DNA from: a virus
Virus record (IMG/VR): IMGVR_UViG_3300030117_007108
Location: 1-30,443 of that record
Direction: 5' to 3' (one strand)
DNA: 30,443 bases
The position numbers were made by a program, and so were the translations under genes. A model generated the notes under the pieces. That model saw only the letters and a program-made list of their open reading frames with translations. It was not told where the DNA came from and did no database searches. Shown in pieces: positions 4,913 to 20,433 of the stretch (its first letter is position 1; the number at the start of each line of letters is the position of its first letter).

Positions 4913-6263
4913 CTCTCCAGCATATGAAAATTTTAGTAATAAGATGACTTCAATGCGAGGTGGTGTTGGTGGTAGCCCTATTTTAAAGAGAAGAAAGATA
5001 AATGCAAATAAAGTTTTTAATAGAGAGGGATCAGATCCTCTTGTCAAGCAAATAGAAAAAAACTCAAGAGAGATAGTATTATTAAAAAACGTCGTTATAT
5101 TAAATACTAATCGAGTTTCTCAGATATTAGTAAATGACGCTGAGAGAGAAAAGTCAATACAAAGAGAAGCACAAAGAAAACAAATATTAAAAGATGAAAA
5201 AGACAAATCTAAAAAGAAAGAGGGATTATTAGAAGGTGTTGGTAAATCGATAAGTAAAACTCTACTTAAACCTGTAGAGGCAGTTGGTAAAACCGTGAAG
5301 GGTGTATTAGGTAGATTAGCTGATGCTTTTATGTTACTTTTTGGTGGATTTATAGCAAATAAAGGAATTAAAATGATTCAGGCACAAATGTCTGGTGATA
5401 CTGAAACATTCAAAAAGATGAGAAATACTATAATTAAGTCAGTCGCAGTGGTTGGTGGTATATTTCTTGCTTTAAATGGTGGTCTATTGGCATTACCTAG
5501 CATTATATCTGGTGTGGCAAGTGCCGTCATTTCTATTGGTGGTGCGATATTAGGATTTCTGGCAAGTCCAGCAGGATTGATTGCACTTGGACTGGCAGCG
5601 GGGGTTGGTGTGTTGTTTGCTATGAAAAAGGGTGTTGACGCTGCTTCAACCAAACTCGCTGGTGGTAGCAAATTTCAGCAAAAATTTAATGATCTTAAAG
5701 GTCCTCTAACAGAAGCTGGCATTACAGTAACAGGTACAGGTAAAGATGAAAAGTTTTATGTTGCTGACAAATATCAGTCACAAGGTGGATCAAAAAGTAA
5801 TTTTACCATAGAAAAAGCAGGAACACCCGAACAAAAAGAAATAGTCGCAAATTATATTATGAAAAGAGATAAAGTAATAGGTATAAGAGATAATATGAGA
5901 GGTGATATGGAAGCAGCGGAGAATAAATTAAGAGAAACGGCTAGTAAAAAGTCTTTAAGAGATGGTACATTCAGTGACGCAGTGGATATAGAAAAAAAAG
6001 AAATAAGAGATAAGTATGAAGCACAAATTAATGGTATGACGAGATCTCCTAAAATAAATTCTAATCCTAATAAAAAAGTGAGTGTCTCCACACTTAATGA
6101 AGCACCTCCAAATATTGTGGATGCAACTACGAATGTAGGTGGTGGTTCAGTTGGAACGTCTGGTAGTGGAAATCTAGCATCTTCAGTTCCAAATATATCT
6201 GCATCAAATTCTGATAATAATTTCACATTATACTCACAAACTCAATATAATATTTTAGTATAA
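4905..6263 (+). CDS. Putative tail structural protein with coiled-coil and hydrophobic core; tape-measure candidate
   Basis: 452 residues, no confident family. Residues ~40-130 are highly charged and helical (Lys/Glu rich, coiled-coil-like). The segment K132-K153 (KGVLGRLADAFMLLFGGFIA then NK) is followed by a long hydrophobic stretch at about 179-240 made of Gly, Ala, Leu and Ile, enough for two to three membrane-type helices. The C-terminal ~200 residues are charged, then Gly/Ser/Asn rich. A protein with coiled coil plus hydrophobic helices directly after the hub/tail chaperone genes and before the hub protein fits a tape measure or tape-associated protein (T4 gp29 position). The next gene encodes a protein with the same 22-residue motif. 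Function is inferred from context; a generic 'structural protein' label is the safe reading. Confidence 0.85.
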   Translation: MDNSPAYENFSNKMTSMRGGVGGSPILKRRKINANKVFNREGSDPLVKQIEKNSREIVLLKNVVILNTNRVSQILVNDAEREKSIQREAQRKQILKDEKDKSKKKEGLLEGVGKSISKTLLKPVEAVGKTVKGVLGRLADAFMLLFGGFIANKGIKMIQAQMSGDTETFKKMRNTIIKSVAVVGGIFLALNGGLLALPSIISGVASAVISIGGAILGFLASPAGLIALGLAAGVGVLFAMKKGVDAASTKLAGGSKFQQKFNDLKGPLTEAGITVTGTGKDEKFYVADKYQSQGGSKSNFTIEKAGTPEQKEIVANYIMKRDKVIGIRDNMRGDMEAAENKLRETASKKSLRDGTFSDAVDIEKKEIRDKYEAQINGMTRSPKINSNPNKKVSVSTLNEAPPNIVDATTNVGGGSVGTSGSGNLASSVPNISASNSDNNFTLYSQTQYNILV

Positions 6264-6264
6264 T

Positions 6265-7425
6265 ATGGCAGCATCAGCAGTTTTACAAATCGGAGCAAAA
6301 ATAGCATCAAAGTCTGCAGGTGCAATGAAGGGTGTCGCTAAAAGTAGTAAGAGATTGACAAAATCTGTACAAAAAAATATTAAAATTAAGAAAAGACTGA
6401 GAGCAACCTCTGAAAGGTTTCAAAAGTATAGAGAAGAGAAGAAAAAAAGACAGGAAAAAGAATCTCTATTAGAACAAGAAAAATCTCAAAAAAAGGGAGA
6501 GGGTCAAAAAACAAAAGGAACTTCTGGAAAAGGACCATTAGAAAGATTAATGTCACTCATTCAAATACTTTTGGTTGGATTTGTACTTAATAAATTACCT
6601 CAGATTATTGATTTTATTAAAAAAGTAATTAAAGTAATTCGTGATATTGTAGATAAATTTAAAGCATTTTTTGATGGTGTGATTGGATTTTTTAAATCTA
6701 TTGGTAAGGTTATTGGAAAAGCTTTTGATGTTATATCAAATTTAAATTTTAATGATATTGGAGATGTAATTAAGGGAGCATTTGGAAAACTAAAAGATGC
6801 ATTTACTAATATAAAAGACAAACTTTTAGATGGTGTTAAGAGTTTTCTTGGATTAAAGAAGAAAAAAGTAAAAAAAGAAATAAATCGAGAGTTGACAGAT
6901 AAAGATTTAAAGGATAAAGAACTTAAATCAAGTGTCAGTGATGTTCAAAAAACTATGGCATCAAAATCTGATGAATTTAATGATACAATAAAAACAATTG
7001 AAAAGGCAGGAACAGGTGTTGATATTGTCGGACCTGAAAATTCTAATTTAACTGAGCAAGTTCAATCAACTATCACCAAAGAAAGTGACGGAAAACCTAC
7101 AAATTTAAAAATGGAAGGATCTTCTAGTGGTAAATCAGGTAGTGGTAAGTTTACCATTATAAGAGAGGATGGATCCACAACAACTGACTTTAGGGAAATT
7201 AAAGCAGCAAAAGAGGCATATCAGTTAAATATAAGTAAACCTAAAAAAACAGTGAGCACGACCACAATCACACCAGAGAGGAAATCTAAAAATACTGTAA
7301 TGATTGTTGGAAACAAAGGTGGTCAGTCTCAATCACATGGAGGAATGAGATCTAAAGGTAAAACTAAGATTATAGTTCAAAAAGATAACAGTATTAAAGA
7401 TCAATTCGCCTTATCTCTATTTTAA
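6265..7425 (+). CDS. Putative tail structural protein related to the preceding one; tape-measure partner candidate
   Basis: 386 residues, no confident family. Residues 1-90 are strongly basic and helical (repeated Lys/Arg/Glu, coiled-coil-like). K89-K110 (KGPLERLMSLIQILLVGFVL then NK) aligns without a gap with K132-K153 of the previous protein, 10 identities in 22. It is followed by successive amphipathic helices (residues ~110-200, many Phe/Ile/Lys) and a charged, Ser/Thr/Gly-rich C-terminus ending in NSIKDQFALSLF. The ATG lies one base after the previous stop (TAATATG). Pore-like amphipathic helices and tandem position suggest a role inside the tail tube or in DNA delivery, but that is inference. 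Confidence 0.85.
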   Translation: MAASAVLQIGAKIASKSAGAMKGVAKSSKRLTKSVQKNIKIKKRLRATSERFQKYREEKKKRQEKESLLEQEKSQKKGEGQKTKGTSGKGPLERLMSLIQILLVGFVLNKLPQIIDFIKKVIKVIRDIVDKFKAFFDGVIGFFKSIGKVIGKAFDVISNLNFNDIGDVIKGAFGKLKDAFTNIKDKLLDGVKSFLGLKKKKVKKEINRELTDKDLKDKELKSSVSDVQKTMASKSDEFNDTIKTIEKAGTGVDIVGPENSNLTEQVQSTITKESDGKPTNLKMEGSSSGKSGSGKFTIIREDGSTTTDFREIKAAKEAYQLNISKPKKTVSTTTITPERKSKNTVMIVGNKGGQSQSHGGMRSKGKTKIIVQKDNSIKDQFALSLF

Positions 7426-7428
7426 CAT

Positions 7429-8769
7429 ATGTCAGCATCAGAAGCATCCAGTTTTGAAGAACTCATACTTGAGTCAAATGATCAAGAAAGAACAGTTGAT
7501 TTGAGATCAGGTGTTGTCAGTATTGATTATTATGAGGATATTCTCTCACCTACTGTGACTGCAAAAATAAGAGTCATAAACACAGGTGATAGTATTTCAC
7601 CCAAAGATACCATTGATCCAAAGAAAACGGATGGTGCAAAACAATCAATTTATAATGGACTTCCTCTAAGGGGTGGTGAGAGATTGTCGATGAAAATTAT
7701 AGATCAAGGAGAAACACAGGCAGGATCAGAAAAAACTGGACTTGATTTTTCATCAGATCCTAAAAAATATCTGTTTGTATCAAGTATTACCCAAGTTCTT
7801 CAAGAAGAACAGAGAGAAAGTTTTTTACTTAATTTAGTATCAAGAGAGGCAATCACAAACGAAACTACCAGAGTGATGAAAAGATACAATGGAACAATTA
7901 GTAATTCTGTAAATAAAATATTGAAAGATGTCTTAGTGGTAGATGAATCTAGATATACTGTGGAAAATACAAGAGGATCTTATAATTTTGTTGGTAATCT
8001 TAGAAAACCTTTTTCAACATTAATATCATTAGCATCTAAATCAGTTCCTGATGTTTCAAAAAATGCGACAGCTGGATTTGTATTTTTTCAAACTCAAGAT
8101 GGATTTAAATTTGCATCTATTGATTCTCTTATTAAAGAAAAGTCAAAGGCAACATATACCTACACAGATGTAAATGAAAGTTCAATAACTCGAAATAATG
8201 ATTACAAAATTCTACAGTACAGTGTAGACAAGAATCAAAACTTAATCGAAAACTTAAGAATGGGAACTTATTCATTTGTTAGATTGGCATTTAACCCTTT
8301 AAATTTTGTTTTTTCACAGACAAAATATAATTACGGAGCAAAAGAGGGTATAAAAAATCTTGGTAGAGATTTAGAGTTACCTAAAATATCTGATGATGCA
8401 ACTCAGACATTAGATCAACTTCCGACAAGAGTTGTATCTCAAATTGTTGATGTCGGTGCAACAGTGGGTGTATCCACCGATACTAATTATTCTCCTGAAG
8501 AATATCAAGGACAAAATATTGTTAGATATAATTTACTAATGACACAAAGTTTAAGTATGACTGTTCCTTGCAATACAGATTTAAGAGCTGGAGATGTTAT
8601 AACTTGTAGATTTCCTAAAATATCAAGAGAGGATTCTATTGAATTTGACCAAGAAACGGGTGGTAAATATTTAATAAAAGAATTATGTCATCATTTTGAG
8701 GCAAAAAGATCATTTACTTCTATGACATTAGTGAGAGATACATTTGGATTGACTGGAGACGAATCATGA
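7429..8769 (+). CDS. Baseplate central hub protein, gp27-type
   Basis: 446 residues; T4 gp27 is 391. gp27-type proteins form the trimeric ring that joins the spike to the tube. The N-terminus reads as a beta strand run (RTVDLRSGVVSIDYYEDILS then PTVTAKIRVINTG), as in hub proteins. The C-terminal part has the hub hallmark: TVPCNTDLRAGDVITCRFPK at about 375-397 followed at about 411-440 by GGKYLIKELCHHF and TSMTLVRDTFG. The last is the usual 'G.Y.I..v.H......tt.l.LvRD.fG' ending of contractile-tail hub domains. Placement directly before a gp5-type gene, overlapping it by ATGA, supports the assignment. Overall identity to T4 gp27 looks low, so no symbol is given. Confidence 0.75.
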   Translation: MSASEASSFEELILESNDQERTVDLRSGVVSIDYYEDILSPTVTAKIRVINTGDSISPKDTIDPKKTDGAKQSIYNGLPLRGGERLSMKIIDQGETQAGSEKTGLDFSSDPKKYLFVSSITQVLQEEQRESFLLNLVSREAITNETTRVMKRYNGTISNSVNKILKDVLVVDESRYTVENTRGSYNFVGNLRKPFSTLISLASKSVPDVSKNATAGFVFFQTQDGFKFASIDSLIKEKSKATYTYTDVNESSITRNNDYKILQYSVDKNQNLIENLRMGTYSFVRLAFNPLNFVFSQTKYNYGAKEGIKNLGRDLELPKISDDATQTLDQLPTRVVSQIVDVGATVGVSTDTNYSPEEYQGQNIVRYNLLMTQSLSMTVPCNTDLRAGDVITCRFPKISREDSIEFDQETGGKYLIKELCHHFEAKRSFTSMTLVRDTFGLTGDES

Positions 8770-11042
8770 TAGACGAATCATTACTTAAAACTAATTTTGT
8801 AGGAAAGGATGGTTTCCGTTGGTGGGTAGGTCAAATTGCACCATCAGCAGCACAAGGGGAACAACTTGCACCAAAAAAAGGAAGTAAAACATGGGGTAAT
8901 CGATTAAAGGTTCGTATCATGGGATATCATCCTTTTTCAAAGGCAGATTTGCCTGATGAAGATTTACCATGGGCTAATGTTATGCTTCCCTCTACATCAG
9001 GAACGGGAGGAGCAAATTTTGCAACATCTATCGAACTAAGACCAGGTGATGTTGTAATTGGATTTTTCCTTGATGGTGAAACCGCACAACAACCTATGAT
9101 ATTAGGATCTTTTGCAAGAACAAAAGGTATTGGAAAGGATCTACCCTCAGAATCAATTGGATTTATACCATTTACTGGATATAATGATAATATATCAGTT
9201 GTAAGTGGTACATTGAAAGAGGATGAATCTGGTGGCACAGACCCAGATTCACAAGAATCTCCTGTCACACGAAAAGTAGGTAAAGGTGAAGATAAAATAT
9301 CAGCATCATCTACTTTTGGAAAGTCAGAAATACCTGCTGATGCTTGTGCTGATAATTTTATAGGAAAAGTATCTGCAAGTCTGGATAATTTACTATCAGT
9401 TGCGAGTGAGAGCACAGATTTTTTATCTGATGTTGCGAACGTAACTAAAAAAATACAAAATTTATCAAATAGTGCAGTGTCAACAATGATGGAATCTTTG
9501 TATTCAGGTATGATTCCTGAACTTCAGGGAGGATTAGATTCATTGTATAATAAAGTATATGGAACTGTATTTGCAGCCACCCAAAATAGTGGTCTTGCAA
9601 AAATTGCAGGTATTGAAGCACAAAAATCACAAGTATCAAAAGTAAAATCACTTCAAGATGATCTTAACTGTTTGAGTGGTAAAGTCGTTAATGGATTAGG
9701 ACAAACAATTCGAGATATGATTACATCAGCTGTTTTTGAAGTGGTGGATACTGGAACATGTATTACTGAACAATTAGCTGGTTCACTATTAAATGGAATT
9801 ACAAATGATATATCATCGGCTCTTGATGCACCACTTGAGGGATTGAGTGATATTGTTCCAAAAAGTTTTAAAGTTCAAGATTTTCTTCGAAGTAGTTCTG
9901 ACGTATTTAAATCGATTGGTGGAGTATTGGATTGTAATCAAAGTGATGGTAAATGTGTGGGTCAAGTCAAAAAATTTACTCTTGGATACGGTGCTGCTAG
10001 AACATTCGATTTACAGGATGCTTATGATAATGTTTTAAAAAATATGAATATTGCAGACACACTTGGTGCCGATAGTGGTCCTTTAACAAAACCAGACTGT
10101 GCGACTAAAACTTTTTGTGGACCTCCCACTGTCAGTTTCTTTGGTGGTGATGGTATTGGTGGATTGGGTCGAGTTATATTAGGTGGTATCGTAGATAATA
10201 CAGAAGGATTATCTGATGTTACTGCGGATGTGAGTCGAACTGCAAGTATTATTGGTGTTGAGATTACAGATCCAGGTTCAACATACTTCACGACTCCTCC
10301 CGTTGTAAGTTTTGAAGATCCATGTAGACAAGGATATGGTGCAGTTGGAAGAGCCATTATTGATTATGATCCAAATTCAAATACTTATGGTCAAATTATC
10401 GGTGTAGATATGATTTCTGATGGAGAAAATTATCCGAGTGCAAATACTGATGATGTTATAAATTCTGACGAAACTCCTGTTGGTGTTATTGGAACTAAAG
10501 TAGTGGATGGTGGACAAGGATATGTTGATGCGTCTGCAGATGGATATAATTTGACGATTAACAATGGTGTAATCATATCTGCGACTCCAATAAATAATGT
10601 TAGAATTACTGAAATACCTAAAATTGTTGTGTCTTCATCTACAGGTGTCGGTGCACTTATCAAACCAATAATAGGTAGATTACCTCTTACTCCACAAGGT
10701 GATATAATTCAAGTCATAGATTGCGTAGGACCAGAAACTAATCAAATTGTGGGATATGTAAACGGTAAACCATATTATGGTCCTTATCATTTCCATCCTA
10801 AAACTGGTGAAAAAATGGTAGGTGCAGTTCACACTTCAGTGCCACATGAAATAATTTATGACACACCAGAGCAAAGTTTCACACCATCTGTTATAGGTGT
10901 CGCATCAACCACCACACAAGTAGACACTATAACGGATCAACCAACTATAACTTCAACATCAACCATGACAAATAATACATCAACGACTACACCACCAAGC
11001 ACTCCTCCATCAGGTGGTGGTGGATATGGAGGTGGTTACTAA
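8766..11042 (+). CDS. 5: gp5-type baseplate hub protein with OB fold, apparently without the lysozyme domain
   Basis: 758 residues. Residues ~17-120 form the gp5/VgrG-type OB fold: FRWWVGQIAP, then NRLKVRIMGYHPFSK, LPWANVMLPS and GDVVIGFFLDGETAQQPMIL, matching the T4 gp5 N-terminal domain. In T4 gp5 a lysozyme domain follows; here I find no lysozyme Glu-8aa-Asp catalytic pattern, but a long Ser/Asp/Leu-rich helical region (~190-420) and a beta-rich region with repeated 'G.GY/G..Y' turns (~480-640). Near the end a histidine motif appears (YYGPYHFHPKTGEK with His675, 677, then His689 and His694). The last residues are Thr/Ser/Pro rich and end GGGGYGGGY. The needle is encoded by the next gene, so T4 gp5 is divided between two proteins here. 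Start overlaps the gp27-type stop. Confidence 0.85.
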   Translation: MIDESLLKTNFVGKDGFRWWVGQIAPSAAQGEQLAPKKGSKTWGNRLKVRIMGYHPFSKADLPDEDLPWANVMLPSTSGTGGANFATSIELRPGDVVIGFFLDGETAQQPMILGSFARTKGIGKDLPSESIGFIPFTGYNDNISVVSGTLKEDESGGTDPDSQESPVTRKVGKGEDKISASSTFGKSEIPADACADNFIGKVSASLDNLLSVASESTDFLSDVANVTKKIQNLSNSAVSTMMESLYSGMIPELQGGLDSLYNKVYGTVFAATQNSGLAKIAGIEAQKSQVSKVKSLQDDLNCLSGKVVNGLGQTIRDMITSAVFEVVDTGTCITEQLAGSLLNGITNDISSALDAPLEGLSDIVPKSFKVQDFLRSSSDVFKSIGGVLDCNQSDGKCVGQVKKFTLGYGAARTFDLQDAYDNVLKNMNIADTLGADSGPLTKPDCATKTFCGPPTVSFFGGDGIGGLGRVILGGIVDNTEGLSDVTADVSRTASIIGVEITDPGSTYFTTPPVVSFEDPCRQGYGAVGRAIIDYDPNSNTYGQIIGVDMISDGENYPSANTDDVINSDETPVGVIGTKVVDGGQGYVDASADGYNLTINNGVIISATPINNVRITEIPKIVVSSSTGVGALIKPIIGRLPLTPQGDIIQVIDCVGPETNQIVGYVNGKPYYGPYHFHPKTGEKMVGAVHTSVPHEIIYDTPEQSFTPSVIGVASTTTQVDTITDQPTITSTSTMTNNTSTTTPPSTPPSGGGGYGGGY

Positions 11043-11638
11043 TGGCAGAAAAATCAAATCAAAATTGGGAAGCAAGAAGGATTGATAGTAAAGGTCCTAA
11101 GTTTCGACTTGATGTGAATAATCCACAGATGGGATCTGATGGTCCAAATACATATTTACAGTATGCTGTTACAGATAATAAGGATAAACAGTTTTCTGCT
11201 TTAAGTGAATCTGGAGTTTATCGACTTCATAATGAAAGAACAATTGAGGTGGTCGCAGGATCTAAGAATAGTGGTAGTGATACATCAGTTAAAATTAGTT
11301 CAGTCGAGGGAGATATTACAATAACCGTGATGGGTAATGGTCAGGTAAAAATTGCTGGAGGAAGTGTAATTGTTCAGGCAGATGAAGATATTGATTTAAA
11401 AGCTGGTCGAAACATAACTTTAAATGCTGCATCAACAGTGACTTTGAAAGGAACGAAAGTTCAAGCAAAAGGTCTTATTGGCAATTTGATTGAGAAAACT
11501 GCTGGTGGTTTTTTACAAAGAGTATTTAAAGGTAGTTATGTTGGTGAGGATTACCTTAAAAATCCTCCTGCAGGTGATAAATTTATATCTGGACCAGTTG
11601 TTTCTGGAACTGGAGATGTACCAGATTTAGGTAGATAG
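11042..11638 (+). CDS. Baseplate spike (needle) protein, gp5 C-terminal beta-helix equivalent
   Basis: 198 residues. The middle (residues ~75-145) is a run of short alternating strands separated by Gly, Asn and Asp: GDITITVMGNGQVKIAGGSV, then QADEDIDLKAGRNITLNAAS and TVTLKGTKVQAKG. This is the pattern of the intertwined trimeric beta-helix that makes the cell-puncturing needle in T4 gp5 and VgrG proteins. The N-terminal third begins with a Trp-containing adaptor and LDVNNPQMGSDGPNTYLQYA; the C-terminus is Gly/Pro-rich. Its ATG shares one base with the stop of the OB-fold gene (TAATG), consistent with equal production of the two halves of a gp5-like complex. Confidence 0.85.
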   Translation: MAEKSNQNWEARRIDSKGPKFRLDVNNPQMGSDGPNTYLQYAVTDNKDKQFSALSESGVYRLHNERTIEVVAGSKNSGSDTSVKISSVEGDITITVMGNGQVKIAGGSVIVQADEDIDLKAGRNITLNAASTVTLKGTKVQAKGLIGNLIEKTAGGFLQRVFKGSYVGEDYLKNPPAGDKFISGPVVSGTGDVPDLGR

Positions 11639-11646
11639 TGTAAATT

Positions 11647-14600
11647 ATGAGTTTAACTGATCTTGATAATTATGAAAGTCGAAAAGCAGATTTTGAAGCA
11701 TTTAAAGATACATTACCTAAAGAACCATCAGGTGATGTAAAAAAAGAATATTGTGTTGGTTGTTTTCAAAAAAGTGATTGGGAGTTCATTCATGCTGAGT
11801 TGATGAAGGATGGATCATTAGAGGATAATATACCGACGGATAAATGTGAGTGTGTAAATGATTGTCTTCAAAGTGATGTAAGAGGAATTTATCTATTAAC
11901 AGATACAGAAGCAATTGAACTTAGATCAAATTCAAAAGTAGATTATGTAAATGTCAATATATGTGCATATCCAGGAACTTATCAGAGTAACCCAGACGAT
12001 TTAGTAGAAGTTAGTCTAACCGATAGATATTCATCAAATGTAAAAAATCAACAAAAAATAACTAATACTTCTGGTGGTATTCGTGAAAATTTTAATTCTG
12101 ATAAATTGAATAGATGTTCAGCTCAATTATATCGACACTCGGCAAAAAAAAATCCTTGGGTGACATTAGGAGATCCAACATCCGTAGTTAATAGTAAATT
12201 ACCTCAATATGGAACAGGATTAGATGTTGATGTAATTGTATGTGATCAGGATATGTGGTTTGGGCATATTGAATTCTGCAATCCAAGTGCAATTACAAAT
12301 ATAAAAACTTATGATGCTTCACAAGGAGATGGTGTAGGGGGAAATGCTTCTACTGAAGCACCGAGTAATTACGTTGGTGGTAATGCTTTAAGAAGTGGAT
12401 TTTCATCGTCTTCCACAACTGGTATGTGTGACTTATTGGATTTAGTTTTAGATGCTCCTTATTATCTTGATTCTGCATGGTTTGAGGCAAGTCCTAGTAC
12501 AAGATTAACTACTCGTTGGGATGGAACAAAAGTTCCAGTTGAGTCTGTTGCAAAGGAATGGTGGTCTGATGCATCAAAAAGATCTGCTGCTTATGCAAGT
12601 ATAGGAACTGTGACTCCTGACTCAGGTGCTATTATAAATCAAACCACTCCATACGTTAGACTTTATGTTGGAGATACTGTCAACTTTAATATGTCAAATG
12701 TTGGCACTGAACACGCATTTTACATTAAAACAGCATTAACATCTGGAACTGGAGATCAGGTCACTACTCCAGCTGCCACAGGTCAAGGTGCTAATGGAAA
12801 CTCGACAACATCATGGACACCCAACACTGCAGGAGTTTATTATATTCGGTGTGCTAATCACTCTATGATTGGATATATTATTGTTAAAGATAATCCCTGC
12901 ACGGGCACGGGATCGACATCAACATTTGATATAACGATCACTGCACCTAACAGCAGTAATTGGTTTGCAAACGGACCACATAGAGGATCCTATAATAGGG
13001 ATAGATGTAATGGAACTAATAAAAGTTATAAAGGTGGAACTGGAAGCCATGGAACACCATGTGCTTCTCAGGCATACGGGAGACAGTATGGTTGGGCTTA
13101 TAATGCAAATAAATGGTTTTTAAATCTTTATGGATCAGGTGGTGTATATTTTGAAGTTGGTTTTGATTTACAAAAAATATTTCATCAGACTAAACCGACA
13201 CATCCAACTCATGGGAATAAAAATCCAACAATCTCTAGTAATAGTTGGGGGAGAAGATTTAGACCAAGTACGTTAGGATCAAGTGGTTACTATTTTTATC
13301 GACCTACTTCGATTGATGGCACTACAACTGGAGTTCAATATACCAGTTGGGATGCGGATGGTAACACTGACGGTACAGGAGGGACTGCTCCAAGATTCAT
13401 GACCAATCGAACTCTTGATCAGGGTGGTAGTGCTATCCAGTGTGAACCTGTAAGTGGATCAACTATGACTGCTGCAAATGAAATGACTGCAGCAGGAGTT
13501 ATTTTTGTATGTTCTGCTGGAAACCGTAATCAAAAGATGGTTAAAAGCACTCACTCAGATTATAATAATTACGTTGGTTCTGGTTCTAACAGTTCTTTAA
13601 GTTCAACACAATTTTTTGTTTCTTTTGATGGACTTACTTACCATAAAACTCTCAATAGGGGAGGTTTTCCATCTGCATTTAATAATTCAATTGTAATAGG
13701 AGCATTAGATGATGATTTTTCATCTGGGAAAGAGAGAAAAGTAAATTATAGTGGTAGTGGTGAATCTGTTGATCTTTATTCTGTTGCAGATGATACATTT
13801 GCAGCTTCTGATAATAGAACACTGAGTTCTCATTCTCGTTATGATTCTTTTTATACTTATAATTCTGTACAATCTCCTCGTAGTTACGATAGATATTTTA
13901 ATGGAACTAGTTCTGCCTGTCCAGTTGCAGTTGGTTTAATTGCCACAAAATTACAATATAATCGAACTTGGACTTCTGCAAATATTAAAAGTTGGTTATC
14001 ATCAATTGGTCAACAAGATACAAATGATTTTTATTATGGTAATGAATCAACCAGTGCAAATGATACAAATTGGTCTGATAAAAATAGTATACAGGGTGGA
14101 TTGGCAATTGTTCCTTTTGATACTGTTATTGATACAACTAATCCAACTTTAAGTAGTTCTTCTCCATCTAACGATGCTACAGGAGTCGCAATAGACACAA
14201 ATATTGTTCTTAATTTTTCCGAATCAGTAGATGTAGAAAGTGGAAATATTGTTATCTATAAGGCATCAGATGATTCCGTTATAGAAACGATTGACGTAAC
14301 AAGTGGTCAGGTTACGGGATCGGGAACTAGTCAGATAACAATAAACCCAAGCAGTGATTTAGCAAACGGCACAGTTTTTTATGTTCAAATTGCTACTACA
14401 GCCTTTGATGACGCTGGAGGTAATTCTTATGCAGGAATATCAGATAAAACAAGTTTAAGATTTACCACTGTGGCTGCTGATACCACTAATCCAACTTTAA
14501 GTAGTTCTGTTCCATCTAATAATGCTACAGAAGTCGCACTAAATGCGAACATCGTTCTTAATTTTTCTGAAGCAGTAGATGTAGAAAGTGGAAATATTGT

Positions 14601-15618
14601 TATCTATAAGGCATCAGATGATTCTACCATAGAGACTATTTCTGTAACAAGTGGTCAAGTCACAGGAGGTGGAACTAGTCAGATAACAATAAACCCAAGT
14701 GGTAATTTAGAAACAAACACAACTTTTTATATTCAAATTGATGCTACAGCCTTTGATGATGCAGCAGGTAATTCTTATGCAGGAATATCAAATAAAACAA
14801 GTTTAAGATTTACCACTGTGGATAGTGATATTACTAATCCAACTTTGAGTAGTTCTGTTCCATCTAACAATGCTACAGGAGTCGCAATAAACACAAATAT
14901 TGTTCTTAATTTTTCTGAGGAAGTAATCGCACAAAGTGGTGGAAATATTGTTATCTATAAGGCATCAGATGATTCTGTCATAGAGACTATTTCTGTAACA
15001 AGTGATCAGGTGACGGGATCGGGAACTGATCAGATAACAGTAAACCCAAGCAGTGATTTAGCAAACGATACAGTTTTTTATGTTCAAATTTCTGCCACTG
15101 CCTTTGATGATGCTTCAGGCAATTCTTATGCAGGAATATCAAATAAAACAAGTTTAAGATTTACCACTGTGGTTGGTGATACAACTAATCCAACTTTAAG
15201 TAGTTCTTCTCCATCCAATGGTGCTACAGGAGTCGCAATAGACACAAATATTGTTCTTAATTTCTCTGAAGCAGTAGATACAGAAAGTGGAAATATTGTT
15301 ATCCATAGGGCATCAGATGATTATATTGTAGAAACGATTGACGTAACAAGTAATCAGGTGACGGGATCGGGAACCAGTCAGATAACAATAAACCCAAGTG
15401 GTAATTTAGCAACAAACACAACTTTTTATATTCAAATTGCTGTCACTGCCTTTGATGATGCAGCAGGTAATTCTTATGCAGGAATATCAGATAAAACAAG
15501 TTTAAGATTTAGAACTGTCATTCCACCTGATCCTGATCCTCCTAACGTTGAAGGAGAATATTCTGTGAGATTTACAGGTAATGGACTATCTTTTGGTGGT
15601 CAACTAGTTATTAAGTAA
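11647..15618 (+). CDS. Subtilisin-like (S8) serine protease with inserted cupredoxin-like domain and four Ig-like repeats
   Basis: 1323 residues. The subtilase core has all four expected residues: Asp200 in VDVIVCDQDMWFGHIEF (aligns with V.VIDSG...HPDL), His468 in GSHGTPCAS, oxyanion Asn626 in FVCSAGNRN and Ser755 in NGTSSACPVAVG. Between Asp and His, residues ~320-412 resemble a cupredoxin: a VGDTVNF strand, His356 in GTEHAFYI, and Cys402/His405/Met407 in YYIRCANHSMIG. Upstream, C36-x2-C39 and C67-x-C69-x3-C73 are followed by LTDTEAIELRSNSKVDYVNV, reminiscent of the end of an I9 propeptide. Residues ~830-1293 are four ~116-residue Ig-like (SbsA/Big_5-type) repeats; a short tail follows. No signal peptide is visible. 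Placed after the spike gene, it is probably virion-associated and may cleave host surface or fibre proteins; its substrate is unknown. Protease fold confidence is high, copper binding is uncertain. Confidence 0.88.
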   Translation: MSLTDLDNYESRKADFEAFKDTLPKEPSGDVKKEYCVGCFQKSDWEFIHAELMKDGSLEDNIPTDKCECVNDCLQSDVRGIYLLTDTEAIELRSNSKVDYVNVNICAYPGTYQSNPDDLVEVSLTDRYSSNVKNQQKITNTSGGIRENFNSDKLNRCSAQLYRHSAKKNPWVTLGDPTSVVNSKLPQYGTGLDVDVIVCDQDMWFGHIEFCNPSAITNIKTYDASQGDGVGGNASTEAPSNYVGGNALRSGFSSSSTTGMCDLLDLVLDAPYYLDSAWFEASPSTRLTTRWDGTKVPVESVAKEWWSDASKRSAAYASIGTVTPDSGAIINQTTPYVRLYVGDTVNFNMSNVGTEHAFYIKTALTSGTGDQVTTPAATGQGANGNSTTSWTPNTAGVYYIRCANHSMIGYIIVKDNPCTGTGSTSTFDITITAPNSSNWFANGPHRGSYNRDRCNGTNKSYKGGTGSHGTPCASQAYGRQYGWAYNANKWFLNLYGSGGVYFEVGFDLQKIFHQTKPTHPTHGNKNPTISSNSWGRRFRPSTLGSSGYYFYRPTSIDGTTTGVQYTSWDADGNTDGTGGTAPRFMTNRTLDQGGSAIQCEPVSGSTMTAANEMTAAGVIFVCSAGNRNQKMVKSTHSDYNNYVGSGSNSSLSSTQFFVSFDGLTYHKTLNRGGFPSAFNNSIVIGALDDDFSSGKERKVNYSGSGESVDLYSVADDTFAASDNRTLSSHSRYDSFYTYNSVQSPRSYDRYFNGTSSACPVAVGLIATKLQYNRTWTSANIKSWLSSIGQQDTNDFYYGNESTSANDTNWSDKNSIQGGLAIVPFDTVIDTTNPTLSSSSPSNDATGVAIDTNIVLNFSESVDVESGNIVIYKASDDSVIETIDVTSGQVTGSGTSQITINPSSDLANGTVFYVQIATTAFDDAGGNSYAGISDKTSLRFTTVAADTTNPTLSSSVPSNNATEVALNANIVLNFSEAVDVESGNIVIYKASDDSTIETISVTSGQVTGGGTSQITINPSGNLETNTTFYIQIDATAFDDAAGNSYAGISNKTSLRFTTVDSDITNPTLSSSVPSNNATGVAINTNIVLNFSEEVIAQSGGNIVIYKASDDSVIETISVTSDQVTGSGTDQITVNPSSDLANDTVFYVQISATAFDDASGNSYAGISNKTSLRFTTVVGDTTNPTLSSSSPSNGATGVAIDTNIVLNFSEAVDTESGNIVIHRASDDYIVETIDVTSNQVTGSGTSQITINPSGNLATNTTFYIQIAVTAFDDAAGNSYAGISDKTSLRFRTVIPPDPDPPNVEGEYSVRFTGNGLSFGGQLVIK
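14134..15525 (+). repeat. Four tandem ~348-bp repeats encoding SbsA/Big_5-type Ig-like domains
   Basis: Units start at about 14134, 14482, 14830 and 15181 (period 348, 348, 351 bp). Each begins with T.NPTLSSS.PSN.AT, contains NIVLNFSE.V and GNIVI(Y/H).ASDD, then VTSxQVTGxGTxQIT(I/V)NPS and ends NSYAGIS(D/N)KTSLRF. The third unit carries one extra codon (SGG for SG). DNA identity between units is high enough that unequal recombination could change the copy number. Confidence 0.9.
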
Positions 15619-15750: not shown

Positions 15751-18700
15751 ATGTCAAATATATCTGTAACTGGTAATGAGGCACAATTTAACGAAAATGT
15801 AACTTTTCTGAAAGATGTTGATATTAGGGGATCTTTAATAGTTCCTGAAATTAATTCATCTAGTCTTTCAATCACTGGTATTGCTACATTTACAAGTCAA
15901 GTTACTTTTAATCAAGGTTTATCATTCCCTGATTTAGAAGTTAGAGATTTTCTAAAAGTAGGTATAGGTGGAACAGTATTAAGTGCAAATTCACTTTTAA
16001 ATCCTGGTAAAGTTGGTATTGGAATTACAAATCCAACAGAATTACTTGATGTATTTGGAAAAGCAAAGATAAAAGATTTAGAGTTAGAAACTCTTTTAGT
16101 CACGGGTATATCAACATTAACTGGTATCACAACTCAAAAAAGCACTTTATTTACAAAGCAATTAAGTTCTGCTGGAGTTTCTACATTTTTTAATACCATA
16201 AATGTTAAAACCGCTGGAGGTAGTGAAATTGGAGATGCCAGCGGATCTCTTGATATAAGATCAAATGTAATTACTTTAACAAATCAATCTGACAACCAAA
16301 ATTACGCAGTATTTACAAATAATGCAGGTGTAGAATTACTATATGCAAATTATAAAAAATTTGAAACAAGTAGTAATGGTGTTATATCTTCAGGTGATTT
16401 AGTTGTAAATGATGTTGGCATTCGAACATCAGGAGTTGGACTTGGAACTGATGTTATTAAACCTGTACCATTTGATGCAGACGAATTTAATGATAATACT
16501 CAAGGATCTTTAAGACTCGTTGTTGATGGTAGTGTCTCAATTTCAAGAAATATTTACGATAGTGCGGGAACACCTGGAGAACCTAACTACTTTTTAAAAA
16601 GAACTGGAACTGGTATTCGATGGACACAAATTGCACCAGGACAGGGAGATGGAATTGAAATAGAGAATGAAGGTCAGTCAGTTCCTGTTACTGGAGCTGC
16701 TCAAACTTTTACATCGATTAATTTTGCACAGGAAAACAGTTTTGGTATTGGAGTTGATAATGTAACTGCAACTGCAGCAGCTGTTCCTGGAACTGGTTTA
16801 GCTACTGTATTTACTTCTGATTTTTGGGGAGTTGAAGAGGGACACGTAGGAGTAGATACTGGCATTTACAGAATGACAAATGTTGGTATTGGAAGTTCTG
16901 CTCCAAGTGTTAAATTAGATGTAAGTGGAGACACAAAATTAAAGGGTAATTTCAGTGTTACAGGTATTACAACTCTTGGTGGACTGTCAACAGTCACTGG
17001 ACCTACCTTATTCACAAAACAATTAAGTGTATCTGATATTTCTACATTCGATGGAAATATAGATGCAAATGGAGACTTAGATGTAGACGGTACAACAGAT
17101 TTAGATGTTTTGAATGTATCTGAAACTGCCACATTTGATGGAAATATAGATGCAAATCAAGATTTAGATGTAGATGGAAGAACCGAATTAGATATTACTA
17201 ATATTAGTGAAACTCTTAATGTCACAGGTATCTCAACATTTGGTAGTGAGGTTGGTATAAATTCTAATCTAAATGTACAAGACAATCTAGATGTAGATGG
17301 AAGAACTGAGTTAGATACCACTAACATTTCAGAAACACTTCGAGTGGGTGGAATATCAACGTTTGTAGGTGTATCTACATTTAATAATCAGATATTTACA
17401 AATAAAATATCAAATTCAGGCATAATAACCTCAAATATGATTCACCTTACAGGTGGATCATTTACTGCTCCACATCCAAGTGGAGAAACAAGATCTGATA
17501 GTGCAATTATTGTAAATGAAAACTTTGGTATTTATTCATTGGAAGTTGCTGGTGGAGGTAATGATAATAGATATTTAAGATCAGTTATACAGAAAGATTC
17601 TGATGTTATATCAATAGGTCAGACAAATACTGCACTTATTTCTGGGATAAACATAATACCAGGTAACCTTGGAACTGTAAGTATTGGATATAGTGGTGCA
17701 GTTAGTCTGGTAGGAGTATCTCAAGATGGAACTACTGCCAATATAGAGAAATTAAGAACTGTTGGATCTGGAATTACAGTCTTTGGAAATCTTGAATCAC
17801 AAACTTTAAATATCACAGGTTTATCAACATTCGGTTCTGCTGTTGATATAAATGATAATTTAGATGTAGATGGAATAACCGAATTAGATATTACCAATAT
17901 TAGTGAAACTCTCAACGTCACAGGTCTTTCAACATTTAATGATAATGTTAGATTAATAGATGCTAAACAATTAATATTTGGAACATCAGACGGACTAGAG
18001 ATATATCATGATGGTGATTCATATATCAGAGCAGAAACTGGTGATTTATTCATTCAACAGACGAATTCTGACAAGGATATTAAAATACAAGGTACAAATG
18101 GAACAGATAGTATTATAGTTGAGGGTGGTGGTTCATATAATGTTAAATTATATTCTTCAGGAAACCTTAAATTAGAAACAAATGATAGTGGTATTGATAT
18201 AACTGGTCATACAGAAACAGATACCTTGAAAGTAAGTGGTCTTTCAACATTTAAGAGTGCTGTTGATATAGATGCCGATTTAGATGTAGATGGACACACA
18301 GAATTAGATAATGTAAATGTATCTGGTTTTTCAACATTTAGTAATGCGGTTGATTTTGATAGCACGATTAAAGATCGTAATGATGACGTTGGTACTACAG
18401 TTGCTGAGAATCTCTCAAATAATATAACTAATGCTTTTTATAATGCGACAACTGGTATTACGACAATTTTCATTGCTAATCATAATTTTGCAAATGGTGA
18501 TTCGATTAAAATTCCAGATGGAACATTAACATTTCAGTGTGACTACAAGGGTGTAACTGGTAGTCAATCATATCCAAGATCAAAAGATCCAAATAGTGGT
18601 AAATGGTTAGTTATATCTAATGTTCAAACAAATCAATTTGAAGTTAATTTAGGAGATGGTGGTGTATCTGCTGGAGTTGCACATACATTTGTATCAGGTG

Positions 18701-20433
18701 GTGGTGTAATTCATTCATCTGGATTATATGTCAAAGATGATTATCGTTTAGCATCAGTCGGAACTGGTGTTTCATGGAGACCATCTGGAGTTCAAACTAA
18801 AAGAACAATATGGGTTTCTAAAAGTGGATCTGATAATAATAGTGGATTACTTGAAGGTGATGCAAAAGCAACTGTTGGTGCTGCAGCATCAATAGCAGTT
18901 GAGACTGATACAATTAAAATTAGACCTGGTGTTTATGAAGAGGATAATCCAATCGGACTAAGAACGGATGTTTCAGTTACAGGAGAGGATCTTCGTTTGG
19001 TTATAATTAAACCAAAAAATAAAAATAAAGATGTTTTTCATGTAAGAAGAGGATGTCTTGTTGAGAATTTAAACTTTGGTGGATCAAATGTTGGAGTTGG
19101 TTATGATGGGTCAGCATGTGTTGCGTTTCCTCCACCATCAGGTGCTGGACATGGTGCAGTTAGTGGTTACAAAGATCCTGGTCCTGCAACTGAAGGTCCA
19201 AGTGGAAGATGGAGATCACCCTATGTAAGAAACTGTACAAACTTCATGACAAGTAGTATTGGAATGAAAATAGATGGAGACCATGCTACTGCATCTACCA
19301 TAGGTGCTGATTTAAAATCTATGGTATGTGATTCTTTTACACAATATAATGAGAATGGTATTGGTGTATCATTAACAAATGATGCTTATGCACAATTAGT
19401 TTCAATATTTACTATTAACTGTGATATTGGTATTTTTGCAGGATCTGGTGCACAGTGTGACCTGACAAACTCAAACTCATCTTTTGGTAATTTTGGTTTA
19501 GTTGCAGTTGGATTAGGATCAACTCAGTTCACAGGAATTGTAAGTAATACAAATACGGCAAATGAACTTATAACCAGTACTGCAGCTGATAGTCAAGATA
19601 CCGTTGTTTGTGCAAATGTTAAAGATGATTCTGATGGAAATAACACGATGCCTTTTACTGGAGCAGTTCGAAGACCATTTGATGGGCAAGCATTATACTT
19701 TAAAATTGATTTGGATAATTATCCAGATACTGTGGGAAGTGGAAGAATTACATCTCCACTTCAACAGTTGAGATCTATAAATTTAATTGAAGGTGCCGAC
19801 ACTAGTGGATATAGTGCTTTTGATCCACCGAGTGTTTTAATAAGGGATGCTGATGGAGAACTTGAACCAAAAGGACCACAAGGAATTATTGCTGAGGCTA
19901 CTGCAACAATAAGTCCAACTGGTAATATAACTGCGATTAGTGTAGTGGCACAGGGTAGAAATTATCTTCCAACTCAAAATATAGTTGTGGATATTGAAGG
20001 TGAAACTGGAATTGCCACTGCTGTCATGGAACCAATATATTTTACAGTTGAATCGGCAACTCAAACAGAAAATCCAAGTGGAATAACCACAATAACCTTT
20101 AATGAATTTGTTCCTTATGAGTTATTTCCAGACGATCCATTTACACTTCAAAGAATTAGTCGAGTCTTAACAAGTTCTCATTCATTTGAATATGTTGGTA
20201 CGGGTACAGATATAAATATAGCGACACCTCTACAAGGTGCAATTCCTATAAAAGAGAATGAAATTGTAGCGAAAGATGGAGCACAAATTCCATTTACATC
20301 AACCGATCAAAAAGGTAACTTTGATATTGGTTCAGGATTACAGATAAACCAAACAACTTCAACAATTTCAGGAAGAGACTTTAGTAGATCATTGCAAGCA
20401 GAAGTTACACCATTAATACTAGCATTAAGATAA
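15751..20433 (+). CDS. Large fibre/structural repeat protein with parallel beta-helix segment
   Basis: 1560 residues, predicted virion fibre or baseplate-peripheral protein. The N-terminal ~880 residues are built from repeated short strand modules such as LNVTGISTF, DNLDVDGITELDITNISETL and an 'IFGTSDGLEIYHDGDSYIRA' unit, as in tail fibres of marine T4-like phages. A module with TTGITTIFIANHNFANGDSI and YPRSKDP lies at ~893-985 and recurs in the next protein. From ~1020 a pectate-lyase-like right-handed beta-helix begins (TIWVSKSGSDNNSG, IRPGVYEEDNPIGL, VENLNFGGSNVG) and runs to about 1290. The C-terminus (FTSTDQKGNFDIGSGLQINQ, then a helix-like end) is a common fibre ending. Start has a good GGGAG site; the stop is one base before the next ATG. 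Polysaccharide binding is possible; no catalytic residues of a lyase are evident. Confidence 0.85.
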   Translation: MSNISVTGNEAQFNENVTFLKDVDIRGSLIVPEINSSSLSITGIATFTSQVTFNQGLSFPDLEVRDFLKVGIGGTVLSANSLLNPGKVGIGITNPTELLDVFGKAKIKDLELETLLVTGISTLTGITTQKSTLFTKQLSSAGVSTFFNTINVKTAGGSEIGDASGSLDIRSNVITLTNQSDNQNYAVFTNNAGVELLYANYKKFETSSNGVISSGDLVVNDVGIRTSGVGLGTDVIKPVPFDADEFNDNTQGSLRLVVDGSVSISRNIYDSAGTPGEPNYFLKRTGTGIRWTQIAPGQGDGIEIENEGQSVPVTGAAQTFTSINFAQENSFGIGVDNVTATAAAVPGTGLATVFTSDFWGVEEGHVGVDTGIYRMTNVGIGSSAPSVKLDVSGDTKLKGNFSVTGITTLGGLSTVTGPTLFTKQLSVSDISTFDGNIDANGDLDVDGTTDLDVLNVSETATFDGNIDANQDLDVDGRTELDITNISETLNVTGISTFGSEVGINSNLNVQDNLDVDGRTELDTTNISETLRVGGISTFVGVSTFNNQIFTNKISNSGIITSNMIHLTGGSFTAPHPSGETRSDSAIIVNENFGIYSLEVAGGGNDNRYLRSVIQKDSDVISIGQTNTALISGINIIPGNLGTVSIGYSGAVSLVGVSQDGTTANIEKLRTVGSGITVFGNLESQTLNITGLSTFGSAVDINDNLDVDGITELDITNISETLNVTGLSTFNDNVRLIDAKQLIFGTSDGLEIYHDGDSYIRAETGDLFIQQTNSDKDIKIQGTNGTDSIIVEGGGSYNVKLYSSGNLKLETNDSGIDITGHTETDTLKVSGLSTFKSAVDIDADLDVDGHTELDNVNVSGFSTFSNAVDFDSTIKDRNDDVGTTVAENLSNNITNAFYNATTGITTIFIANHNFANGDSIKIPDGTLTFQCDYKGVTGSQSYPRSKDPNSGKWLVISNVQTNQFEVNLGDGGVSAGVAHTFVSGGGVIHSSGLYVKDDYRLASVGTGVSWRPSGVQTKRTIWVSKSGSDNNSGLLEGDAKATVGAAASIAVETDTIKIRPGVYEEDNPIGLRTDVSVTGEDLRLVIIKPKNKNKDVFHVRRGCLVENLNFGGSNVGVGYDGSACVAFPPPSGAGHGAVSGYKDPGPATEGPSGRWRSPYVRNCTNFMTSSIGMKIDGDHATASTIGADLKSMVCDSFTQYNENGIGVSLTNDAYAQLVSIFTINCDIGIFAGSGAQCDLTNSNSSFGNFGLVAVGLGSTQFTGIVSNTNTANELITSTAADSQDTVVCANVKDDSDGNNTMPFTGAVRRPFDGQALYFKIDLDNYPDTVGSGRITSPLQQLRSINLIEGADTSGYSAFDPPSVLIRDADGELEPKGPQGIIAEATATISPTGNITAISVVAQGRNYLPTQNIVVDIEGETGIATAVMEPIYFTVESATQTENPSGITTITFNEFVPYELFPDDPFTLQRISRVLTSSHSFEYVGTGTDINIATPLQGAIPIKENEIVAKDGAQIPFTSTDQKGNFDIGSGLQINQTTSTISGRDFSRSLQAEVTPLILALR
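17161..17937 (+). repeat. Dispersed 81-bp repeat pair within the 1560-aa fibre gene
   Basis: The segments 17161-17241 and 17857-17937 differ at about 7 of 81 positions and encode LDVDGRTELDITNISETLNV / LDVDGITELDITNISETLNV plus TG.STF. Weaker copies lie at about 17285-17360 and 18280-18340. They are the DNA trace of module duplication in this gene. Confidence 0.8.
20211..20218 (+). promoter_or_regulatory. Internal TATAAATA, possible late promoter upstream of the 331-aa gene
   Basis: An exact TATAAATA is embedded in codons Asp-Ile-Asn-Ile of the 1560-residue gene, 224 bases before the next start. It may be a real internal late promoter or chance in AT-rich coding DNA. Confidence 0.25.

Follow-up and report, generated by a model that had tools for sequence, protein, structure and literature searches.

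The window, a stretch of 30,443 bases that constitutes IMG/VR record IMGVR_UViG_3300030117_007108, belongs to a T4-like marine myovirus, a virus of bacteria, and codes within its tail module for a subtilase of 1323 amino acids (open reading frame, ORF, at positions 11647-15618, on the plus strand as are all the features of the window given below). The protein comprises an I9-like propeptide, an S8 protease domain with a cupredoxin-like domain nested in it, four Ig-like repeats of the Big_5 type and a short C-terminal tail. The S8 protease and the four repeats had been recognised in the original prediction, which overlooked the propeptide and the nested domain. The protein is interpreted, with roughly even chances, as a tail-associated zymogen protease cleaving a host-surface protein, the cupredoxin-like domain being a contact module beside the cleft. 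This interpretation is based on the S8 fold with an invariant catalytic set, the topology and profile matches of the propeptide, the lack of an N-terminal signal, the tail context here and in other clades, the 'virion protein' label of the homologue in phage S-SCSM1 and the conserved ligands of the cupredoxin-like domain.

The protease domain comprises residues 125-818 (12019-14100), interrupted by the insert. The ORF is a subtilase by motifs, Pfam and modelled fold, and proteolysis is its predicted activity. Relatives were identified in 284 IMG/VR stretches and in about 47 isolate records, which lends no support to the earlier statement that proteases are rare on phage tails. Eighty loci were kept from the IMG/VR stretches (loci are cited by L numbers), and these plus the window gave 84 near-full-length ORFs, those not spanning query residues 40 to 780 being excluded; a 90% identity filter reduced them to 47 representatives, less than 90% identical to each other. 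The four residues previously placed in S8 motifs were located as codons and are identical in 47/47 representatives: catalytic Asp200 (12244-12246, aligned with the Asp of subtilisin VIDSG), catalytic His468 (13048-13050, in an HGTPCA motif), oxyanion-hole Asn626 (13522-13524, aligned with subtilisin AAGN) and catalytic Ser755 (13909-13911, aligned with subtilisin NGTSMA). His207 is equally invariant. When the family profile was compared with subtilisin BPN', the Asp, Asn and Ser motifs were in register and the His motif lay outside the pieces aligned by HMMER.

A profile search and a structure prediction, both proposed with the original prediction, gave the same assignment. Pfam Peptidase_S8 (PF00082) was matched with 52.2 bits (cut-off 21.8, E 7e-14), and the AlphaFold2 model, which comprises residues 1-828 and leaves residues 829-1323 outside, reached a mean predicted local distance difference test score (pLDDT) of 82.5 and a predicted template modelling score (pTM) of 0.73. 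In VIA-align the model was superposed on aqualysin I over 272 of 276 residues at 2.4 A (Z 29.6), covering the whole protease, the evidence being this superposition and not distances between the catalytic residues. The fold also matches the proteinase K type, and the 50 Foldseek matches listed were all subtilases or relatives such as PCSK9. The PHROGs family matched by the protein is phrog_9158. Full-length Pfam negatives proved unreliable for long proteins, because S8 was overlooked in the proteins of MED4-213 and P-HM2 until the region was isolated (1.3e-27 and 9.8e-27, respectively).

The propeptide (residues 31-112, 11737-11982) is located directly ahead of the protease and presents in the model a beta-alpha-beta-beta-alpha-beta topology, with strands at 33-39, 69-71, 79-84 and 98-103 and helices at 42-52 and 86-93. 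When 177,635 PDB sequences were searched with a profile built from the 47 N-termini, four chains were returned at E<=10 (E 0.24-1.9), all of them subtilase prosegments; two of the four, and likewise 8c4z_A, are labelled only as protease and were assigned to the prosegments on account of their length and position. Pfam Inhibitor_I9 (PF05922) was identified in 15 of the 47 members, with a best E of 4e-4. The topology, the prosegment matches and the place directly before the protease together make it likely that the window protein is a zymogen, the self-removal of the propeptide being presumed by analogy with other subtilases.

The nested insert (residues about 323-447, 12613-12987) is probably a cupredoxin-like domain with a full set of type-1 copper ligands, copper binding being predicted from these ligands. 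It adds about 125 residues to the interval between Asp200 and His468 (126 in the alignment, 323-448), at a site where 45 of the 47 representatives have 5-7 residues; the only other carrier is L004, and L005 and L006, 75-76% identical to the window, have just 7. The G+C fraction at third codon positions (GC3) is 0.26 in the insert (32/125 codons) and 0.15 elsewhere in the ORF (182/1198; Fisher p 0.005). The predicted ligands are His356 (12712-12714), Cys402 (12850-12852), His405 (12859-12861) and Met407 (12865-12867). A profile of 21 copies gave 72 PDB matches at E<=1, of which the 60 listed all bear the name of a copper or cupredoxin protein, with nitrite reductase as the best (2.4e-9) and pseudoazurin, amicyanin, rusticyanin and plastocyanin among the others. 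The insert ends about 20 residues ahead of catalytic His468, which by subtilase topology would place it near the cleft.

The domain could also be a metal-free, Ig-like beta-sandwich acting as a mere spacer, a possibility that is rather doubtful but deserves weight. It is one among many interchangeable inserts, its ligand loop in the window clade (C-x2-H-x-M) is one residue shorter than in the other motif-bearing copies, and the window copy scores 14.7 with Pfam Copper-bind (PF00127), under the cut-off of 21.2. The shortest natural ligand loop known is the CxxHxxM of amicyanin, a claim for which the literature search found no paper. Against a spacer, the P-SSM2 copy exceeds the same cut-off (23.3), and the ligands are conserved. 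In ten aligned copies six columns are invariant and four of these are the H, C, H and M. Among 79 distinct copies the four columns hold H in 76, C in 75, H in 75 and M in 76, and 74 rows combine the H with C-x2-H-x(n)-M; in the three copies with a degenerate motif, several ligands are missing at once. Of the 90 columns, the five with the highest conservation comprise the four ligand columns and a Gly, a result favoured by the search itself since the profile used to find the copies already contained the ligands.

The domain of the window is possibly circularly permuted, as residues about 424-447 resemble the opening strand of the domain in P-HM1/MED4-213. With 9 typed segments, none of 3000 shuffles attained the best local-alignment score and 2 of 3000 attained the mean score; a profile test with 13 segments was not significant (1358/10000 shuffles reached the score). 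This is taken as a lead only, because the match was first spotted by eye.

Protease and cupredoxin-like domain were identified in several layouts. In the window and L004 the domain is nested between Asp and His just before the catalytic His, and in a different clade (L010, L014 and L017) a homologue, about 100 residues long, occupies another loop of the same interval. In S-H9-1 it is C-terminal to the protease; in P-HM1, P-HM2 and MED4-213 it flanks the protease on both sides, with one copy between an I9-like start (judged by eye in the P-HM1 protein) and the catalytic domain; and in S-SCSM2R, S-SSM7 and P-SSM2 it is found in the next gene. A joint survey was made of 48 records (43 from IMG/VR and 5 isolates), a selection picked for S8 or cupredoxin and not all loci, from which two weak S8 fragments (G024 and G025) were omitted, neither record having a cupredoxin match. 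The domain was identified in 36 of the 48, and in 34 of these the nearest copy lay within 3.5 kb of S8. Nine IMG/VR records of at least 75 kb had been retrieved solely through S8 peptide patterns; five of them have a copy no more than 5 kb away (p 0.0006), compared with 0.95 expected under random placement, an expectation that ignores the clustering of tail genes. The search starting from cupredoxin gave 29 isolate records. In 26 of them S8 is part of the cupredoxin-bearing ORF or lies no more than 2.4 kb from it, and the other three are RefSeq copies of tested records; the records represent about a dozen distinct phages.

Mere co-residence in the tail gene cluster would also bring the two together, and this explanation is held as a minority possibility of some substance. 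It agrees with the presence of the domain in four of the seven S8-free cyanophages tested (P-TIM68, P-SSM4, Syn9 and S-SKS1); in Syn9 (79017-80237) and P-SSM4 (79112-80341) it forms the C-terminal domain of a gp9-like baseplate connector, with all four ligands present. It does not agree with the variety of ways in which the two are fused or nested, at least four in number, of which two use different loops of the catalytic interval. Since the domain also occurs in protease-free tail proteins, it is, as judged from sequence, a tail module that these phages use in general and have combined with the S8 protease again and again. The use of cupredoxin as a marker of S8 phages was dropped, given these S8-free carriers and S-CREM1, where S8 is present with no cupredoxin match. 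In S-SCSM1 the domain is found in a fibre about 7 kb from S8.

The four Ig-like repeats after the protease (14131-15516), as previously described, were identified as Big_5 (Pfam, 219.3 bits in four stretches), with a start motif at residues 832, 948, 1064 and 1181. A reading of these repeats as CopC was rejected, as PF04234 reached 47.3 (cut-off 23.3), far below Big_5, and NCBIfam copper_CopC gave 67.8 bits, under its cut-off of 95. The absence of Met and Cys and the presence of one His in their translation also count against CopC. Copy number among close relatives is four in the window, two in L001-L003 and one in L004.

Other modules were identified in the same protease. In L022 and L024 (6517-7338 in both) Gly_rich_2, of the glycine-rich adhesin type and over its cut-off, is nested ahead of the catalytic Asp. 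The S8 ORF of L017 (5971-9327) contains, besides cupredoxin, about 310 residues without a Pfam match nested between Asn and Ser, including a stretch rich in His, EVIEHVFHTLHMHG, which is a possible metal binder. In L035 (S8 ORF 5983-9216) a repeat-like insert of about 280 residues, with no confident Pfam match, lies between His and Asn. Extra nested or terminal modules such as Gly_rich_2 are to be expected of a fibre-like adhesin.

The genes around the subtilase ORF are T4-type tail genes: the hub/lysozyme family phrog_1922, phrog_3363, the tail-tube cap and the tail tube. Upstream are a gp5-type baseplate hub protein (8766-11042, phrog_1922 E 2e-118) and a phrog_3363 protein, possibly spike-related by Pfam/PHROGs comparison (11042-11638), and downstream is a fibre-like gene (15751-20433). 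The location between spike and fibre genes given in the original prediction is thus correct for the window, with hub and phrog_3363 genes on one side and a fibre-like gene on the other, and is restricted to the nearest relatives, L001-L004, the only ones that keep this order. Conserved synteny of S8 with gp5 beyond these four was rejected on comparison of the relatives' loci. In other clades S8 is directly followed by a baseplate wedge-fibre connector gene in three of the four examined (L018, L056 and L061, not L008). The best isolate matches belong to Synechococcus phage S-SKS1 (hub 49%, tube cap 50%), in whose record the hub and an adjoining gene of about the size of the phrog_3363 gene were found and no S8 was; the protease therefore looks like a gene added at this spot.

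The window hub presents an OB domain alone in Pfam, with no lysozyme domain match. A scan for promoters and terminators gave 20 promoter-like sites (shuffle mean 21.6) and 3 terminator-like sites (1.8). Two or three S8 relatives are clustered in L033, L028, L032, L036, L038, L039, L040, L047, L057 and L062, and L023 contains a single ORF of 1346 amino acids with two S8 stretches.

The main rival explanation is an assembly protease, whose role would be its own maturation and that of adjacent fibre or connector proteins while the tail is put together, and which would stay in the virion only incidentally. Self-processing is typical of subtilases, S8 adjoins fibre and connector genes in several clades, and the tandem S8 paralogues of some loci could suit different fibre substrates. 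Nevertheless, the seven cyanophages picked for no S8 match had none (7/7), so S8 is dispensable for building a T4-like cyanophage tail, and a morphogenetic protease needs no adhesin-like inserts or repeats; this role is considered unlikely. An enzyme released or kept inside the cell, degrading host proteins late in infection and not part of the virion, would be in line with S8 proteases in general, which are usually secreted or cytoplasmic. It is very improbable here: the gene is within the tail module, the S-SCSM1 homologue is labelled a virion protein and no hydrophobic N-terminal signal was seen in the window protein (best 12-residue mean hydropathy -0.36).

The placement of a complete subtilase in a tail or baseplate module is borne out by the tail-gene neighbours and by the S-SCSM1 gene SSCSM1_228, whose depositors had virion mass spectrometry and gave it the note 'baseplate wedge subunit (virion protein)'. 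Their study detected 45 proteins in virions purified in caesium chloride and names ORFs 91, 213 and 214 (PMC9602691). All three bear the 'virion protein' label in the record, where several structural genes are without it. SSCSM1_228 is not called a protease in that paper, whose main text contains neither 'protease' nor 'peptidase' (PMC9602691). The proteome table of S-CREM2 lists no S8 by name (PMC10665884). In Sullivan 2010 the passages mentioning the S8 peptidase in P-HM1/P-HM2 and the petE genes draw no connection between them (PMC3037559).

Several points weigh against a tail-borne zymogen with a metal-bearing contact domain. The 'virion protein' label is good but imperfect evidence, as it stands on 48 S-SCSM1 coding sequences compared with the 45 proteins of the paper (PMC9602691), and the study of S-CREM1 detected only 14 virion proteins, its main text containing neither 'peptidase' nor 'protease'. 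The position of the S8 gene relative to gp5 varies across relatives. The PDB prosegment matches of the N-terminal profile are weak, and the propeptide segment of the window itself has no Pfam Inhibitor_I9 match. The model of the insert is of low confidence (pLDDT 65.6), with a best Z of 5.6 (rusticyanin) and top rows that are mostly copper proteins; Foldseek with the same model gave nothing at E<=0.001.

In the tail-associated zymogen reading, the I9-like N-terminus would aid folding of the S8 domain and block its cleft until self-cleavage after the propeptide, as in other subtilases. The mature enzyme would be displayed on the baseplate or fibre region via the Big_5 repeats and would cut a host-surface protein during adsorption. 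The cupredoxin-like domain would hold a mononuclear metal, probably copper as predicted from the ligands, and most likely act next to the cleft as a rigid module for surface contact; this role is preferred over electron transfer because no redox partner is evident. A bolder proposal, considered improbable though worth stating, is that marine T4-like tails bear real blue-copper sites, the copper domain having been acquired independently by several lineages at differing points of one protease. On the rim of this subtilase, metal or redox state would then control how the enzyme is positioned or gated at the surface of the host.

Subtilase annotations in cyanophages go back years with no role assigned, and the domain anatomy, a predicted tail zymogen with a predicted metal site beside the active site, makes that role testable. 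The same protease serves as a chassis for at least four kinds of nested domain. A protease used as an entry tool would differ from the usual tail enzymes, which cut glycans, and if copper were bound, blue-copper proteins would have in virions a location so far overlooked.

Compared with S8 subtilases of the proteinase K/aqualysin type, the window protein has the same fold, Asp/His/Ser set and oxyanion Asn and, probably, an N-terminal I9-like propeptide. It differs in being a phage tail-module protein with Big_5 repeats and no signal peptide seen, and in the distance of about 250 residues from Asp to His, nested domain included. With the blue copper proteins (plastocyanin, amicyanin, pseudoazurin and rusticyanin) the insert shares profile similarity and the His...Cys-x2-His-x(1,2)-Met ligand set; it differs in being nested in a protease, in its CxxHxM loop and possible circular permutation, and in that its metal is predicted. 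Cyanophage petE (plastocyanin) belongs to the same cupredoxin superfamily and is a stand-alone gene of 324-369 bases, often in an electron-transport/carbon cassette, whereas the domain of the window is inside an S8 ORF of the structural region; a petE identity of the insert was rejected on this account. The PetE-annotated gene beside S8 in S-SCSM2R (L086:8209-8715) is a structural-type cupredoxin protein, probably not a photosynthetic plastocyanin.

The closest known counterparts are the cyanophage S8 genes in tail context, those of P-SSM2 (PSSM2_297, 611 amino acids), S-SSM7 (SSSM7_232), S-SCSM1 (SSCSM1_228), S-H9-1 and S-SCSM2R, the first two belonging to T4-GC 292; none of the five has cupredoxin nested at the site of the window (0/5). 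Subtilases in the tail region are by themselves nothing new, since the family is common and already annotated in cyanophages, in some as S8 or virion protein. A full-text literature search, in which subscription journals were thinly covered, found no report of the S8/cupredoxin pairing or of the propeptide. Relative to the known S8 annotations of cyanophages, the probable propeptide and the repeated coupling of S8 to cupredoxin would be the new elements.

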